Shown in pieces: positions 5,441-23,066 of a stretch of 46,792 nucleotides of DNA. Origin of the DNA: Spirochaetes bacterium GWF1_51_8 (GTDB taxonomy: Bacteria > Spirochaetota > Brevinematia > Brevinematales > GWF1-51-8); contig MIBE01000010.1 of NCBI GenBank assembly GCA_001829415.1, positions 1 to 46,792 on the forward strand, in the 5' to 3' direction. How positions within the stretch are numbered: the stretch's first letter is position 1; each line of letters starts with the position of its first letter. The translations under genes and the position numbers were made by a program. Under the pieces are notes generated by a model. It saw nothing but the letters and a program-made list of their open reading frames with translations, did no database searches and was not told the DNA's origin.

Positions 5441-6874
5441 ATGAGAATGGTTCTGTTTAAGCTTTTTTTATTTTCGCTATTTGTGGCGTTCACTGGGGGA
5501 TGCGCGAATACGACAACGGTGAAGGAAAATGGGTATGTTCGAGTTTACAATGAAAAGGGACTGCTGCTGGAATCGGTAAATGAAAAATTAGGCATCAAGA
5601 TGGTCTATGAGAATGACGGAAAAATCGTCAAGTATTATAACGGTAAAGAGCTTCAATTCACGGGATATAAGATTATCGCTACAAATAAGATTTATACCGT
5701 GAAGGATTTAAGTTACGATTTTGGGATAAAACTTGCTATCCCTGAGGCGTATATCGTGGTGGGCGAGACCCTGAAAGGAATGATGACTGCCACTATTGTA
5801 CCAAAATCGCCGATGGACGCGGTATATCATAAAGTGAAGGGGGAGATTGAGTATATTTATATCCGCTCATTTCCCAGCTGGATCGAAGAGAATTTTCTGA
5901 AGAACGCGGTTCCGGTAGAATCGGTGATTTCTGAAAAGGATGATCTTTTAGCGATTACGAAAAAATCCCTCGACGAAAATTTTAATAGCTGTATTCATAT
6001 CAACGATTATGCGGTATACAACGAAGAATTCTATATTGCAAAGATAAAAATCGTTCCCGCAAACATCGGCTTGATGTGGCAGTCGACGAGCGAAATGATC
6101 AGCCCTGTCAATTTCGTCGATACGGGGCATATGGGGGGTAAGGCTTATGAGGCATATTGGAACGAGTACGCTGACGGCATCTTTCGTGTATACTATCCCA
6201 ACGGCAGTGTGATTGAGAAAGACCCCGCAAAATGGCTCGAATCCCGCAAAGAAGCGTTTACGAAAATCACTAATTTTCTCAATCTGAAATGGACTTATGG
6301 GAATATCAAGTTCTATGTATTTAATGATAAAAAACAGGGCAAGGATATGGGTGAAATGTCGCTGGGATACGCCAGCCCCTCGGCGTGCGCGGTGTACACG
6401 ACGTTCGACCAAACACCCGGCCATGAGTTGACACATGTCGTAGCATACCGGATCGATAACGGCTTGCGGATATTTTCCGGCGTCGCAAACGAAGGACTGT
6501 CCACTCTTTTAGATCAGAGCGGGCGAAACTATCACCTGCTTGCCAAGCATCTGATCGAGAATAAGATCGCGTTACCGAAACTGCTTGCCGAAAACTTTCA
6601 TCAAAATAAATATGGCTATTGGCTCGGCGCGTCATTTGTAAAGTACCTGATCGACATATACGGATTGGAAAAGTACAAAAGTTTCTTTGCGCAGGAACAA
6701 TATGACGAGAAGGCGGCATTTAAACAGTTTTATAATAAAAGCGGAATTGAACTTGAAACGGAATGGGTCGATTTCCTGAAGAAAAGCGATTTCGGCAAAC
6801 TCGGCGAGAAGGAAGAAAAAGCGTTGAAAATGATGGAAAACTCTTCTGAAAAATCAGGAAAAAATAATTTTTAA
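5441..6874 (+). CDS. Lipoprotein with peptidase MA-like (gluzincin) domain
   Basis: A 477-residue lipoprotein: signal with lipobox FTGGC (Cys about 21). The first 210 residues are beta-rich and unrecognised. Residues about 240-460 resemble the peptidase MA family of zinc metallopeptidases. HELTH (about 328-332) gives the HExxH zinc site, and ANEGL (Glu about 351), 19 residues on, supplies the third ligand, as in gluzincins. The downstream GASFVKYLIDIYGLEKY is typical of these proteins. It would act at the cell envelope on an unknown protein substrate. ATG 5441 is preferred to ATG 5435 because the ribosome binding site GGAGG abuts 5435. It shares the operon with the membrane-anchored paralogues. 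Confidence 0.8.
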   Translation: MRMVLFKLFLFSLFVAFTGGCANTTTVKENGYVRVYNEKGLLLESVNEKLGIKMVYENDGKIVKYYNGKELQFTGYKIIATNKIYTVKDLSYDFGIKLAIPEAYIVVGETLKGMMTATIVPKSPMDAVYHKVKGEIEYIYIRSFPSWIEENFLKNAVPVESVISEKDDLLAITKKSLDENFNSCIHINDYAVYNEEFYIAKIKIVPANIGLMWQSTSEMISPVNFVDTGHMGGKAYEAYWNEYADGIFRVYYPNGSVIEKDPAKWLESRKEAFTKITNFLNLKWTYGNIKFYVFNDKKQGKDMGEMSLGYASPSACAVYTTFDQTPGHELTHVVAYRIDNGLRIFSGVANEGLSTLLDQSGRNYHLLAKHLIENKIALPKLLAENFHQNKYGYWLGASFVKYLIDIYGLEKYKSFFAQEQYDEKAAFKQFYNKSGIELETEWVDFLKKSDFGKLGEKEEKALKMMENSSEKSGKNNF

Positions 6875-6881
6875 GAAGGAT

Positions 6882-7265
6882 ATGGAGGAATTACCGAAGA
6901 GCGATCCGTTATATGCTGAAATCTCGCTTGTTTTTAATAAATGCATGTCTTGTATCGGTAGCAAGGATATGACCGGCCTTCACGCCCTGATAGTAGATTA
7001 CCCGGGAATGCCCGCGCCCTCCCTCGATGAATTGAAGAATGGAGAAAAGGGTTTAGGTAAAATCTACAGAGGTTTAACGGATATCCTTTTTAAAGAAAAC
7101 AAGGATTTCCATATCCTGAGTATACAAAAGGCTACAATCAAGGGGACGGATCAATATATTGTGACAGCGGAATTTTTGTTTATGGAAAAATGGCGCCCTG
7201 CTGAGTTCTGGTTTCGCATGGTTGAAGGTAAACTCGGTATCGACAATTTCGATATCGAATGGTAA
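6882..7265 (+). CDS. Free-standing copy of the paralogues' C-terminal domain
   Basis: A 127-residue protein without signal peptide or membrane helix. It aligns with the C-terminal domains of the products at 3668-4531 and 4556-5422: YIVTAEFLF (compare YILTAEFLF), then WRPAEFWFRMVEGKLGIDNF. It is therefore a single-domain relative, NTF2-like by inspection only. It begins 8 bases after the peptidase gene, with AAGAAGG as ribosome binding site. It may be a truncated paralogue that lost its anchor, or a soluble cytoplasmic partner. The lack of a secretion signal while its relatives are extracytoplasmic is odd. Confidence 0.7.
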   Translation: MEELPKSDPLYAEISLVFNKCMSCIGSKDMTGLHALIVDYPGMPAPSLDELKNGEKGLGKIYRGLTDILFKENKDFHILSIQKATIKGTDQYIVTAEFLFMEKWRPAEFWFRMVEGKLGIDNFDIEW

Positions 7266-7280
7266 AATACTCGATCGGAC

Positions 7281-7315
7281 ATCCCCTTCGCCTCACGCGG
7301 TGGGGATTTTGTTTG
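7281..7315 (+). terminator. Possible intrinsic terminator of the padR operon
   Basis: ATCCCC (7281-7286) pairs with GGGGAT (7302-7307), with a further CC/GG pair inside, and is followed by TTTGTTTG. The stem is interrupted, so this is moderate evidence. Confidence 0.5.
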
Positions 7316-7387
7316 TGATGCTATATTTCATTCTATTGATTCTTTTTTTACAGTTTAAGAGAAGAGACATGGCGAACTCATGGAAAA

Positions 7388-7416
7388 TTGACTAATCCTC
7401 TGTCATTATTTAATAT
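7388..7416 (+). promoter_or_regulatory. Promoter of the hicB-hicA operon
   Basis: TTGACT (7388-7393), a 17-base spacer and TAATAT (7411-7416). The start codon at 7433 would leave a very short leader that begins close to the ribosome binding site GAGGTGAG. Confidence 0.5.
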
Positions 7417-7432
7417 TTTATATGAGGTGAGT

Positions 7433-7627
7433 ATGAATAAAATTTCCGTTGTTTACTGGAAAGAAAATGATTTCTGGATCGGGTATCTGCTTGAATATCC
7501 CGATTACCGGACTCAGGGCTCGACATTGGATGAACTGAAGGAAAACATAAAAGACATCTATAAAGAGATCGACGAAGGAACGGTTCCAGGAGTTCATAAA
7601 GCGAGTATTATGGAGCTAATTGTTTGA
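7433..7627 (+). CDS. hicB: HicB-family antitoxin (short form)
   Basis: A 64-residue protein matching the partial RNase H-like fold of HicB: a WIGYLLEYPDYRTQGSTLDEL segment follows the first strand, then a helix (KENIKDIYKEI). It lacks a C-terminal DNA-binding extension (RHH or HTH), so it is of the short HicB type. HicB neutralises the HicA mRNA interferase by direct binding. GAGGTGAG is directly upstream of ATG 7433. The gene order is antitoxin first. The last codons overlap the TTG start of hicA (TTGA). Confidence 0.85.
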   Translation: MNKISVVYWKENDFWIGYLLEYPDYRTQGSTLDELKENIKDIYKEIDEGTVPGVHKASIMELIV

Positions 7628-15966: not shown

Positions 15967-16806
15967 TTATTCCCAGATCGTCCCGGGCGAGACGGTGTAA
16001 TTTCTTCCGAAATTGTTATCCCACGCAGCCGCGCCGTTCAGAGTGTATGAAATAGCGAAACTGACATTTTCCGGGGTGCCGGCGAGCGGGGCGTATGCCC
16101 ACCAAACGCTGGCTTTGTTTCCGCCGGTGAAATCGGAATCGTCATAGACATACTGGGCTTGAGCTTCTTTCACGGTAGCCCAGTTGTCTTCGGTGTAGAC
16201 GATTTTTACGCTTTTATCTCCCTCGGCGTATTTGGTGAAGATGCGGCAGTTGAAGAATTTTTCGGTATCGTTCTGGCCGTAGGAAGCGTACTGCATCGCG
16301 ACAATGCTTTTCCCCCATGCGAACTCCGCGCTGAAGTTCCTGGGGCCGGTCCCGGTCATGTAGTCCTGACCGTTGTTATTATCCCAGTAAGTCTGCCCGT
16401 TCACGGTGTATCTGACCGCGAAACGGACATCCCATCCCGCGAACGGATTAAACCCGATGCCGTCGAGAGCGAAGTACCAGATTTCCTTATTTCCGGGTAT
16501 CGACTTCAGGTAACTCGCGGCGATATCTTTCCACTCCGAACCGAGTGTATAATGGACGACGACTTCCTTCCGGTAAGCCGCGTTCTCAACCTCGATATAA
16601 CCGATGAACTTCCCGGTGCCGAACGTGTAAGTGGCATAGCATTTCGAGTAGTAAAGTTTGACCATCGTACCCTCGCCGTAACCGAGCGGATCGAGTGAGG
16701 CGGAGCCGGAAGGCGCGGGGGCGGAAGGATCGAGACGGTCCGCGACCGAGCAGGCCGCACCGGAGATCAGGAACGCAAACACGATGAAACCGAACAGCTT
16801 TTTCAT
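15967..16806 (-). CDS. Lipoprotein with two CBM21-like starch/glycogen-binding modules
   Basis: A 279-residue lipoprotein: signal with SGAAC (Cys19), then a Ser/Pro/Ala-rich linker. Two copies of a beta-sandwich module follow, at about 48-150 and 165-279. Each has the CBM21 hallmarks: a strand with FA(V/I)xYT(V/L)NG, then YWDNNNGQDY in the first and AWDNNFGRNYTV in the second. Each also has the upstream KxVxVxYTxDxW-type strand (VKIVYTEDNW in the second). CBM21 binds alpha-glucans such as starch or glycogen. There is no catalytic domain, so it is a surface or periplasmic binding protein. A near-consensus promoter and a LacI/CcpA-like palindrome lie upstream, suggesting carbohydrate control. 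Confidence 0.82.
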   Translation of the reverse strand: MKKLFGFIVFAFLISGAACSVADRLDPSAPAPSGSASLDPLGYGEGTMVKLYYSKCYATYTFGTGKFIGYIEVENAAYRKEVVVHYTLGSEWKDIAASYLKSIPGNKEIWYFALDGIGFNPFAGWDVRFAVRYTVNGQTYWDNNNGQDYMTGTGPRNFSAEFAWGKSIVAMQYASYGQNDTEKFFNCRIFTKYAEGDKSVKIVYTEDNWATVKEAQAQYVYDDSDFTGGNKASVWWAYAPLAGTPENVSFAISYTLNGAAAWDNNFGRNYTVSPGTIWE

Positions 16807-18686: not shown

Positions 18687-19283
18687 ATGCCGATCGAAAT
18701 AGTCGAGGGTTCGCCCCGGTTTCATTCCCAAATCCCCAGATTCGTTCTCGACAGCGGGGAAGGGATCAACCGGGCTATCCTCGGTCGAAATCCGGAATCA
18801 TTTCTATCATCAGTCTATCGTAAAAAACACGGGTACTACAGTTATCGGCGGTCGTTTATCGCGGAATGTGACGGCAAAAAGGCCGCCGGTTGCATTTTTG
18901 CGCTGGACTATGCTATAATTAAAAGGGAATATATCCACGAAATATTCATTCATCTTTCTCATCCGATTGTGCTCCTGAGACAGATGAAATCCCTGCTCGA
19001 TGCCGAACAGATCATCAAGAGCGTCGGCGCAGGCGATTGTTATGTGACGCATCTCGCGGTGCTTCCGGAATACCGTTCTCAGGGATTGGGCGCGAGGCTT
19101 CTGGACAAGACGACGGACTTTTACCGTGACCGCGGCTGTGTGAGACTGCTTCTCGATGTGGATACGGACAACGAGGGCGGAATCCGTTTCTACAGGCGGT
19201 ACGGACTCTCTATGATACAGGAACGCGCGGTCGTGATCGGCCGCAACAGATTCCATTTGACCCGGATGGGTATGAATATTTAA
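18687..19283 (+). CDS. GNAT family N-acetyltransferase
   Basis: A 198-residue protein with the acetyl-CoA-binding motif A of GNAT enzymes: LAVLPEYRSQGLGARLLD (about residues 128-145, with the Q-G-L-G pyrophosphate loop). Motif B follows (GIRFYRRYGL). The N-terminal 110 residues are divergent, so the acceptor substrate is unknown. It begins a tightly spaced train: mraY follows at 16 bases. The ribosome binding site is GGAAGGG. Confidence 0.87.
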   Translation: MPIEIVEGSPRFHSQIPRFVLDSGEGINRAILGRNPESFLSSVYRKKHGYYSYRRSFIAECDGKKAAGCIFALDYAIIKREYIHEIFIHLSHPIVLLRQMKSLLDAEQIIKSVGAGDCYVTHLAVLPEYRSQGLGARLLDKTTDFYRDRGCVRLLLDVDTDNEGGIRFYRRYGLSMIQERAVVIGRNRFHLTRMGMNI

Positions 19284-19299
19284 CGGACGGTGAGGGAAT

Positions 19300-20772
19300 A
19301 TGCTTTACTCGTTATTCTATCAATTCAGCGAAAGTTTTACGCTTCTCAATCTACTCAGGTATATATCTTTCCGCTCGCTCGCGGCGTTCTTTACCGCGTT
19401 CCTGATCGGGATGGTGATATTCCCTTGGTTTATCCGCAAACTCCGCGAACGTAAGATGGGTCAGGCTATCCGCGACGACGGTCCCCAGAGCCATCAGACG
19501 AAGGCCGGTACGCCGACAATGGGCGGGCTTGTGGTGATAGTCGCGGCGCTTCTCGCGATCCTGCTCTGGGCGCGTTTCGAATACTATGTCCTTGTCGTGG
19601 GGCTAGCCATTGTCCTTTTCGCCGGGATAGGTTTTATCGACGATTATCTCAAAGTCCGGTATAACAACTCGAAGGGTATTTCCGCGAAACTGAAGCTCGT
19701 ACTCCAGATCACCGCGGCGGGTATCATCCTCGCGCTCCTTTACTTCAATCCCCAGCACTGGCGCGAGAACACGTTCTCGGTCATTGTCAAGGACGAACAT
19801 TCCAAGCTCGTGATCGAGTATCCGTACACATGGCAGAACTCCGGGACTATCGAATGGGTACGGACGAACAGCACTGGCGGTATTGTCAGCCCAGGGCGTT
19901 ATCAGATATTCTTTGCCGTGGCGGATATTTTCGGCAATAAGAGCGAGAATCTCCTGTCGCTCGTCCGGTTATTCGACGACTACGGCCCGGTGCAGATAGA
20001 TATCAAGGCGATGAATATGAAACCCGACGAGGCGGAATCGCCGAAGGACTCGATTCTGAATCTGAACTGGGCGCTGACACTCTCGGTGCCCGCGTCGGCG
20101 GTAAAAGTGCAGGAGATCAGCGGGATTCTCGAGGTGAAACGGAGTTCCGATTTCTTCTTCAGTTTCTATCTCCCGTTCTTCTCTAAGCCGATCTTTATTT
20201 GGCCGCCGATTCTGGGATTCCTCTTTTTCGCCTTCGCGCTGATCGCGTTCTCCAACGCCACTAATCTGTCTGACGGGCTGGACGGACTCGCGGCGGGGAT
20301 GGGGATCATCCTTTTTATCCCGTTCGGCATCTTCGCGTATGTAATGGGTAACATCAATATATCGGAATACCTTCTCTTTCCGCACCTGCCGGGTTCCGGC
20401 GAACTCGCCGTGATCGTAATGGCGATGATCGGCGGGTTTGCGTCGTTCCTGTGGTATAACGTCCACCCCGCGCAGATATTCATGGGGGATACGCTCTCGC
20501 TATCGATGGGCGGAACTATCGCCACGATCGCGATCATCCTCAAGCTGGAAGTACAGCTCCTGATCGCGGGATTCATGTTCGTACTGGAAACGGTGTCGGT
20601 CGTGCTCCAGGTGTTTTGGTTTAAACGGTTCAAGAAGAGGATATTCCGCATGGCGCCGATCCACCACCATTTCGAACTGGGAGGGTGGAAGGAAACCCAG
20701 GTGGTACTGCGGTTTTATATCATCAGCGTGCTCTTTGCGCTGATCGCGCTCTCGGCGCTGAAAGTCCGTTAG
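19300..20772 (+). CDS. mraY: Phospho-N-acetylmuramoyl-pentapeptide transferase with large extracytoplasmic insertion
   Basis: A 490-residue polytopic enzyme that transfers phospho-MurNAc-pentapeptide to undecaprenyl phosphate, giving lipid I. Family motifs are all present: QTKAGTPTMGG (66-76), GFIDDYLK with catalytic DD (114-115), ATNLSDGLDGLA (320-331), and APIHHHFELGGW (452-463). Typical MraY has about 320-360 residues; here about 135 extra residues (151-288) lie between two membrane helices in what should be an extracytoplasmic loop. The insert is beta-rich and contains GGIVSPGRYQIFFAVADIFGN, which resembles the FlgD Ig-like fold. The gene is not in a mur/fts cluster but between a GNAT gene and amrA. 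Confidence 0.93.
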   Translation: MLYSLFYQFSESFTLLNLLRYISFRSLAAFFTAFLIGMVIFPWFIRKLRERKMGQAIRDDGPQSHQTKAGTPTMGGLVVIVAALLAILLWARFEYYVLVVGLAIVLFAGIGFIDDYLKVRYNNSKGISAKLKLVLQITAAGIILALLYFNPQHWRENTFSVIVKDEHSKLVIEYPYTWQNSGTIEWVRTNSTGGIVSPGRYQIFFAVADIFGNKSENLLSLVRLFDDYGPVQIDIKAMNMKPDEAESPKDSILNLNWALTLSVPASAVKVQEISGILEVKRSSDFFFSFYLPFFSKPIFIWPPILGFLFFAFALIAFSNATNLSDGLDGLAAGMGIILFIPFGIFAYVMGNINISEYLLFPHLPGSGELAVIVMAMIGGFASFLWYNVHPAQIFMGDTLSLSMGGTIATIAIILKLEVQLLIAGFMFVLETVSVVLQVFWFKRFKKRIFRMAPIHHHFELGGWKETQVVLRFYIISVLFALIALSALKVR

Positions 20773-20782
20773 GAGGGGCGTG

Positions 20783-21352
20783 ATGGAAAAACTCAGGCTG
20801 TCGGCCGAACAGAAGAAAGAACTTCTGCGTACTGTCAGGGCGACTATCGAGAGAAAGCTCGAACTCGCCGACCCCATTCCCATGCCGGGATTGAACGACG
20901 AGATTTTCGGGCAGAAGTTCGGGCTATTCGTTACCTTGACTATAGAGGACAATCTGCGGGGCTGTATCGGGTATGTCGAAGGGGTGAAGCCCATCCGCGA
21001 GGCGGTACAGGAGATGTCGGTGCAGGCGGCGTTCCACGACCCCCGCTTTTACCCGTTAACCGCGAAGGAATACCCCGGGCTGAGCGTGGAGATATCGATC
21101 CTTTACCCTGTCGAGGAAGTGGCGAACCTCGAAGACATCGCTGTCGGGCGCGACGGACTGATCCTCGAAAAGGGATACAGGCGCGGGCTTTTGCTCCCGC
21201 AGGTGGCGACAGAGTACGGGTGGGATAGGACGCGCTTCCTGAACGAGACATGCCGGAAAGCGGGCCTCGAGCCGTTCGCATGGGAGAACGGAGCGAAAGT
21301 ATACAAGTTCGAAGCAGAGGTTTTTAACGAAACGGATACCGGCCTAAAATAG
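20783..21352 (+). CDS. amrA: AmmeMemoRadiSam system protein A (AMMECR1 domain)
   Basis: An 189-residue protein with the AMMECR1 domain. The hallmark LRGCIG (about residues 55-60) is followed by AVQEMSVQAAFHDPRF, and then LSVEISILYPVEEV and RGLLLPQVATEYGWD. AmrA is one of three partners in the AmmeMemoRadiSam system (with the Memo-like AmrB and radical-SAM AmrS), whose chemistry is unsettled. The other two genes are not in this window. ATG 20783 is preferred to the adjacent GTG 20780, given AGGAGGGG just upstream. It follows mraY closely, in the same train. Confidence 0.92.
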   Translation: MEKLRLSAEQKKELLRTVRATIERKLELADPIPMPGLNDEIFGQKFGLFVTLTIEDNLRGCIGYVEGVKPIREAVQEMSVQAAFHDPRFYPLTAKEYPGLSVEISILYPVEEVANLEDIAVGRDGLILEKGYRRGLLLPQVATEYGWDRTRFLNETCRKAGLEPFAWENGAKVYKFEAEVFNETDTGLK

Positions 21353-21368
21353 ATCCAAGGGAGCGGAA

Positions 21369-23066
21369 ATGCGGTACGGATTCTTCGGACATCGCGGCAT
21401 TAACGAATTCCTGAACGAGAACGGCGAAGGTTTCTTTTTCTCGCTACTGAAAGACGGCAAGAGCTGGAGTAAGTTCTTCCTGAATGTCGGGATGCCGGAC
21501 CGGTATCCGGCGTTCAATACCGCCCATAAAGACGACCCTTCCTACTGTTCCGAGATCAAGCTCGGCCCCTGTTCGTTTACACCGTTCTACGCGAAGTACA
21601 GCATTTTCGATAACACATTCGAATGGATACAGTATAAACACGTCATTCTGCTGAAAGCCCATTTAGTCAACCCGGCGGATTTTCACGCTAACGGGCTTGT
21701 CAAAAGGGTGGAAGAATACCTTGTCATCGGCGGGCAATTCTTTATCCGTGGGATCGATTTCGAACTGTCCTATCTCGGCGACATCGAACTGGTGATCGCG
21801 GATAAGCAGATCGGGTTTATCGAGTTTGAAGAATACTACGCCAAGGCTAAAGAAGAGCTTGGAACGGCGATATTTAAAGAGAGGCCGCTCGAGGTCGCGC
21901 GGGGCGCGGTGTTCTACAACCTCGCGGTCGCGGGAATCTGGAAAAGCAAATTTTACGTGCCGGTGAACAAAGCGTGGTCGGGCTTCATGTCCGCATTGTT
22001 CGGGGTGCCCGAGGCGAAACACGGGCCGCTCCTGTTCGCATGGGACGCGTCGCTGTCCAGCATCATCTTATCCCGTTACGATACCGAGCTCGCGAAACTG
22101 ACCTTGCAGACGGTGCTCGAATGTATCACTCCCGACGGGCGTATCCCGCAGATCGTGATGCGCGAACGGGTCAGCAACCGCTCGAATCCGCCGGTCTGGT
22201 TCCTCGCCGCCAAGGAAATCTACGACCGCACCGAGGACGTCCATTTCATCTGGGGAATTTTTCCCGCTCTCGTGAAAAACTATAAATGGTTCAAAGCGAA
22301 CCGGATGAACGAGGACTATACCTTTAGTTGGGGAAGTGACAACGAGGACGACGAAACTCTCCTGCGCCTCACCGGGAAAACCGGGGCGGTACTCGAATCC
22401 GGCTTGGATAACTCGCCGATCTTCGACGAGATGGGTTTCGCGAACGGGAAGCTGGATTACGCGTGTATCGACCTGACCGGTATGATGGCTCTCGCGGCGG
22501 AAATCCTTCTCGAGTTCTCGAGGATTCTTTCGTTACCGTCCGGCGAGTTCGTCGAAGACCTGATCTTCTTCGGGAAGTCGCTGAACGAGTTTTTCGACTG
22601 GAATACCGGCACAGCCAACTCGTTCAAACGCGCCGGATTGGGCAAGGTCTTCGCGAAGGAGATCACGCCGCTGTCGTTTTACCCGCTGCTCTCCGGCCTG
22701 GTGGAGGAGAACGAGGTTAAACTGCTCGAGGGGATGTACCTGTCGAAGCATTTCCAGAATCAGTGGGAGATACCCTCGTTAAGCATCCAGTCGCGGGACT
22801 ATCTTCCCGACGGCGATTATTGGCGCGGGCGGATTTGGCCGCCGATCAATTTCCTCGCCGCGTGGGGATTCAAACGGCACGGGTCGGATATCTACCGTCT
22901 GATCAAGGAAAGCTCCGAACGCCTCCTGATGACGGAATGGCTCCGGCATAACCATATCCATGAAAACTACTCGGCGATCTCCGGCGAGGGCGAGCCCAGT
23001 CATGGGATTTACGCGCGTTCCTGCCCGTTTTACTCATGGGGCGGCCTTTTGGGGATTATGGATTAG
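21369..23066 (+). CDS. GH63-type (alpha/alpha)6 glycoside hydrolase
   Basis: A 565-residue cytoplasmic protein (no signal). The C-terminal (alpha/alpha)6-barrel shows the GH63/clan GH-G pattern: FAWDASLSS (Asp226), ESGLDNSPIFD (Asp347, the likely general acid), GDYWRGRIWPPIN (485-490 core) and HIHENYSA (Glu532, likely base), then GEGEPSHG. These match bacterial GH63 enzymes such as glucosylglycerate or mannosylglycerate hydrolases and trehalase-like relatives. The likely job is turnover of a compatible-solute glycoside or alpha-glucoside, but the substrate cannot be fixed. AGGGAGCG precedes the ATG. Its last 11 bases overlap the convergent PilZ gene. Confidence 0.83.
   Translation: MRYGFFGHRGINEFLNENGEGFFFSLLKDGKSWSKFFLNVGMPDRYPAFNTAHKDDPSYCSEIKLGPCSFTPFYAKYSIFDNTFEWIQYKHVILLKAHLVNPADFHANGLVKRVEEYLVIGGQFFIRGIDFELSYLGDIELVIADKQIGFIEFEEYYAKAKEELGTAIFKERPLEVARGAVFYNLAVAGIWKSKFYVPVNKAWSGFMSALFGVPEAKHGPLLFAWDASLSSIILSRYDTELAKLTLQTVLECITPDGRIPQIVMRERVSNRSNPPVWFLAAKEIYDRTEDVHFIWGIFPALVKNYKWFKANRMNEDYTFSWGSDNEDDETLLRLTGKTGAVLESGLDNSPIFDEMGFANGKLDYACIDLTGMMALAAEILLEFSRILSLPSGEFVEDLIFFGKSLNEFFDWNTGTANSFKRAGLGKVFAKEITPLSFYPLLSGLVEENEVKLLEGMYLSKHFQNQWEIPSLSIQSRDYLPDGDYWRGRIWPPINFLAAWGFKRHGSDIYRLIKESSERLLMTEWLRHNHIHENYSAISGEGEPSHGIYARSCPFYSWGGLLGIMD

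Follow-up and report, generated by a model that had tools for sequence, protein, structure and literature searches.

The mraY gene of the window (the whole stretch analysed, 46,792 nucleotides of contig MIBE01000010.1 of Spirochaetes bacterium GWF1_51_8) encodes a MraY protein whose loop between the fourth and fifth transmembrane helices (TM4 and TM5) carries a large inserted domain, and we judge it slightly better than even that this is a working MraY with a periplasmic docking domain descended from the FlgD-type Ig modules of envelope proteins. MraY is an essential, compact enzyme and an antibiotic target, and its contacts known to us lie in the cytoplasm or within the membrane. That MraY should carry a conserved domain in the periplasm suggests that, in some bacteria, the site of lipid I synthesis may be set from the outer side of the membrane, and the insert would offer a defined, deletable handle on that positioning. 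A search of the open literature found no earlier report of a periplasmic domain on MraY.

The 490-residue product matched the NCBIfam model TIGR00445 (mraY) with an E-value of 2e-103 and 346.3 bits, above the curated cut-off of 192.05, and its Glycos_transf_4 match was broken in two by the insert. It is the sole gene of the Glycos_transf_4 superfamily found in the genome (assembly of 3.54 Mb, 93.5% complete). An AlphaFold2 model built with 31 MraY homologues gave a confident MraY core (pLDDT mostly >90) with the ten-helix MraY fold, which in Foldseek matched solved MraY structures of E. coli, Aquifex and Hydrogenivirga (8g01, 6oyh, 9zno and 5ckr) at E-values down to 1.6e-21 and with a TM-score by target of ~0.9. 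The protein thus shares its ten-helix core, catalytic residues and predicted fold with MraY of E. coli (8g01) and Aquifex aeolicus (4j72, 5ckr), whereas those enzymes have 360-365 residues and a short TM4-TM5 loop. D114, D115, N322, D325, D328, D397 and H455-457 are all invariant across an alignment of 32 MraY sequences. The earlier note had described all catalytic motifs as intact, which holds for the catalytic Asp and His residues but not for the near-invariant Gly of GDTGSL, which in this genus alone is Leu (residue 399; 20494-20496), two residues past the catalytic D397. The substitution is present in all four genus genomes; the position is Gly in the 31 other MraY of the alignment, and Leu occurred in none outside the genus among ~60 MraY aligned. 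Since this position is not a defining catalytic residue, the MraY assignment stands. The genome also contains a MurG-like gene (7.6e-71, the best match falling slightly under the murG cut-off) and a MurJ gene, which would serve the following steps of the pathway. With the catalytic residues kept, no other superfamily gene found and these pathway genes present, lipid I synthesis in the cytoplasm is the most likely activity of the insert-bearing MraY.

Table 1. Features of the mraY locus, in positions of the window.
Feature	Position	Strand	Basis or remark
Upstream gene, GNAT acetyltransferase	18687..19283	+	PF00583, E 2.9e-15; same place in genus
mraY, phospho-N-acetylmuramoyl-pentapeptide-transferase	19300..20772	+	490 aa; TIGR00445, AlphaFold core compared with MraY structures
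Catalytic Asp pair, D114-D115	19639..19644	+	Cytoplasmic side, before TM4; invariant in 32 aligned MraY
Insert, residues ~153-283	19756..20148	+	Between TM4 (129-149) and TM5 (303-324), periplasmic side; alignment, AlphaFold secondary structure
FlgD-type Ig-like module of insert, residues 156-243	19765..20028	+	hhalign with spirochaete FlgD_ig units
C-terminal part of insert, residues 244-284	20029..20151	+	Predicted beta strands; no significant homology
Active-site loop NLSDGLDGLA, N322-A331	20263..20292	+	N322, D325 and D328 invariant (32 aligned MraY)
GDTLSL motif	20485..20502	+	Catalytic D397 kept; near-invariant Gly replaced by Leu399
Conserved HHH, H455-H457	20662..20670	+	Invariant (32 aligned MraY)
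Downstream gene, AMMECR1-domain protein	20780..21352	+	PF01871, E 2.7e-53; synteny

Boundaries of the insert were set by aligning the window MraY with 29 other spirochaete MraY. Compared with insert-free MraY of the same order (frames of 368-373 aa) it has ~130 extra residues, which begin just past 'YFNP' at the end of TM4 and stop just ahead of the 'F.FYVPFF' stretch that leads into TM5, so that the limits proposed earlier (~151-288) were correct within a few residues. In the AlphaFold core model the catalytic DD, TM4, the insert and TM5 follow one another in this order. Published work on MraY describes ten transmembrane helices, both termini in the periplasm and an active site on cytoplasmic loops (PMC4790310; PMC5039524), and for the Aquifex enzyme a small beta-hairpin on the periplasmic side has been described in a review (PMC4790310). 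Given this topology, an insert that follows TM4 lies in the periplasm; the outward orientation proposed in the earlier note is therefore supported by homology, through the fit of the core model to the E. coli and Aquifex enzymes, the DD pair ahead of TM4 and the published arrangement. The TM4-TM5 loop, probably the site of the small beta-hairpin in solved MraY structures, would here have been replaced by a conserved periplasmic domain.

The first reading of the insert had rested its resemblance to FlgD Ig-like domains on the motif GGIVSPGRYQ...ADIFGN. The Pfam FlgD_ig model (PF13860) matched the window insert weakly (E 0.2, 12.1 bits, under the gathering cut-off of 27) and over model positions 25-71 of 79, the first 24 being absent; the best E-value among the inserts of the genus was 0.053. 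A profile of the four genus inserts was run over 393 genomes. At E <= 0.001 it matched long open reading frames in 28 Spirochaetota genomes other than those of the genus, against ~0.4 expected by chance. All five proteins scanned (four matches of the insert profile and one protein of the window's own genome picked by Pfam) carry multiple FlgD_ig domains with E-values of 1e-36 to 1e-52, one of them with a clear OmpA domain. A profile of the different MraY insert of a related family (f4, below) was run the same way as a control and matched nothing outside that family.

Comparison of the insert with 35 FlgD_ig units by hhalign gave a probability of 97.7% and an E-value of 2e-12 over columns 7-127, with none of 200 shuffles as good. 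Because these units had been chosen with the insert profile itself, the comparison was repeated with Pfam-chosen FlgD_ig units of the same genome, which scored 34.7 against 12.7 +/- 2.3 for column-shuffled profiles (maximum 20.7; 0/200 as good). Taken separately, columns 7-67 (residues 156-216) scored 60.3 against a null of 10.8 and columns 63-94 (residues 212-243) scored 20.6 against 9.8, in each case with 0/60 shuffles as good, while the last ~40 residues gave no significant match to FlgD_ig units in hhalign (13/60 shuffles as good). The idea that these 40 residues form the next FlgD_ig repeat unit, hinted at by the long alignment, was set aside as they are not significant alone. On these profile comparisons, homology with the FlgD-type Ig modules found in large repeat proteins of spirochaetes spans insert residues 156-243. 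The resemblance thus extends beyond the motif, over residues ~156-243 and below the Pfam cut-off, and the significance of the profile comparisons makes the motif a true FlgD-type Ig signature.

In the tandem-repeat proteins (L042, L138, L141, L125) a single unit matches residues 156-243 in order and register. These proteins have ~1000-1500 residues and several modules each, some with OmpA, and unlike MraY are not membrane enzymes. The ~88 matching residues of the insert would accordingly descend from FlgD-type Ig modules of large envelope repeat proteins. One such protein is encoded in the same genome (G000:C23:10919-12415; L125-L128), in a 1384-aa frame that has repeated FlgD_ig domains and ends in an OmpA domain, and could possibly be the source of the insert module, or its partner. 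OmpA domains are a peptidoglycan-binding family, and the presence of one at the end of this protein would fit an insert that senses the status of the wall by binding peptidoglycan or some other glycan of the periplasm. We consider such glycan binding quite improbable, as the insert comes without the OmpA part and we know of no established glycan-binding role for FlgD_ig modules.

The fold proposed earlier for the insert, a FlgD-type Ig domain, draws its support from the profile statistics rather than from structure. A single-sequence AlphaFold model of the insert was all-beta with eight strands, at a pLDDT of 56, and its top PDB match in Foldseek was the Ig-like domain of FlgD from Xanthomonas campestris (3c12), a secreted flagellar hook cap protein, at a non-significant E-value of 0.25. 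Foldseek of this model against the PDB and viral models returned nothing significant, nor did sequence searches of solved structures with the insert, either singly or as a profile. In the full-protein AlphaFold2 model, where none of the aligned sequences extends over the insert and its confidence is low for that reason, strands appear at 254-262 and 273-281. An Ig-like fold is thus supported at the level of sequence homology. A match that lacks the first FlgD_ig strands, together with the strands predicted at the C-terminal end, suggests by topology reasoning a permuted sandwich, in which the strands of the C-terminal ~40 residues are predicted to complete the Ig fold in circularly permuted order. 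Permuted in this way, the domain would have its two ends close to each other, above TM4 and TM5.

The same in-frame insert is present in all four available genomes of the genus (family f1), at 62-94% identity, and GC3 is alike in the insert and the MraY core. The agreement of the four genomes rejects an assembly error, and the probability of any assembly or gene-prediction artefact is negligible: the four genomes share the reading frame, the same neighbour genes and the lack of stop codons. In the closest pair of the genus the insert had a dN/dS of 0.05, with 0.028 over its N-terminal 80 residues, and the MraY core one of 0.027; the C-terminal part of the insert evolves faster (0.10), and values for the insert are well below 1 throughout the genus. 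By this measure the insert is under purifying selection. A nearly neutral decoration, in which a lineage-specific insertion is kept by drift or folding constraint alone, would agree with the faster C-terminal part and with the restriction of the insert to one genus, whose relatives have none or a different one. We hold it very unlikely, given dN/dS well below 1 and a domain still recognisable across the genus. The main rival is a structural role, in which the domain recruits no partner and instead adds stability to MraY or the MraY dimer, or covers the periplasmic face. A stabilising domain would also be expected to evolve under purifying selection, but an N-terminal module that in the closest pair is constrained as tightly as the catalytic core speaks against this role, and FlgD-Ig modules usually occur in surface or assembly proteins, a context that fits binding better; we regard a structural role as somewhat unlikely.

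In the docking role, which we prefer, the Ig-like domain would present a docking surface in the periplasm and the catalytic core would make lipid I on the cytoplasmic side. Docking would keep MraY beside a partner, for which a flippase/synthase complex and an envelope scaffold are candidates.

Within the order, 13 genomes divide into four with this insert (f1), four from two genera with a different insert (f4) and five with none (f2 and f3). The f4 insert, of ~120 residues, occupies the same place in MraY and is conserved in both genera (L007, L008, L013, L014). Over 393 Spirochaetota genomes the MraY matches of the f1 and f4 insert profiles were each confined to their own family, and the f4 profile had no detectable relatives; one f4 member matched DUF11 at E 0.012. 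Among the TIGR00445 matches listed for 198 Spirochaetota genomes, judged by match lengths, no insert of >100 aa was found outside f1 and f4, and the other matches listed were unbroken or had much smaller insertions, such as ~25-30 aa in the Brachyspira-like f14. As two families of the order lack an insert, MraY can evidently be active without one. In a tree of the MraY core, with the insert columns removed, supported branches place f4 as the first family to split off and f1 as the sister of f2+f3, which makes one gain and one loss about as simple as two gains. Comparison of the f1 and f4 insert profiles gave 25/200 shuffles as good, and that of the f4 insert with FlgD_ig 6-8/200; these sequence comparisons neither demonstrate a common origin of the two inserts nor reject it. 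The genes around mraY (TPR, GNAT, AMMECR1 and glycoside hydrolase) are the same across the genus where contigs allow, and the mraY-AMMECR1 order is shared with the insert-free families f2 and f3, indicating that the gain of the insert, or its loss from the relatives, happened at this locus.

The same loop is also occupied in other phyla. Hydrogenedentota MraY (L044, L047; both 6001-7482) carry an insert of ~130 aa at the same TM4-TM5 position, similar in size but apparently helix-rich and, by eye, unrelated in sequence, and this was probably an independent event; Bacteroidota MraY have a shorter insert at the same site. Unrelated inserts in one loop suggest a general site for additions. A loop that tolerates additions in this way is also what a purely structural role for the domain would lead one to expect. 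In a more specific form of the docking reading, the Ig-like domain would tether the first membrane step of wall synthesis to a partner in the periplasm, be it a synthase complex, an OmpA-type envelope scaffold or the periplasmic flagella, the TM4-TM5 loop being a general docking site filled independently by different phyla. We consider this version unlikely; if it were true, lipid I would be produced at the sites where it is required for the wall or the flagellum.

Human DPAGT1, of the same superfamily, also has a lineage-specific inserted domain, of 52 residues in cytoplasmic loop 9, which forms part of the substrate site (PMC6218659). The superfamily therefore accepts inserted domains, although the DPAGT1 insert is cytoplasmic and at the active site whereas that of the window MraY lies on the opposite face of the membrane.

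Several minor features of the locus and its relatives were observed. MraY of f2 and f3 (L009-L012) have about six extra residues (e.g. KMFGEG) in the cytoplasmic loop before MAPIHHHFE, absent from the insert-bearing families. In the single-contig genome of an insert-free relative (G007:C1:1844128-1845082), mraY appears to be split into a 310-aa frame and a later 76-aa frame, with a TGA, which suggests a frameshift or sequencing error. In the window, mraY lies outside any dcw cluster, flanked by the GNAT and AMMECR1 genes and a GH63/MGH1-like glycoside hydrolase gene (18687-23066), and a putative lipoprotein with two starch-binding modules (CBM21/CBM53) is encoded at 15967-16806 on the minus strand.
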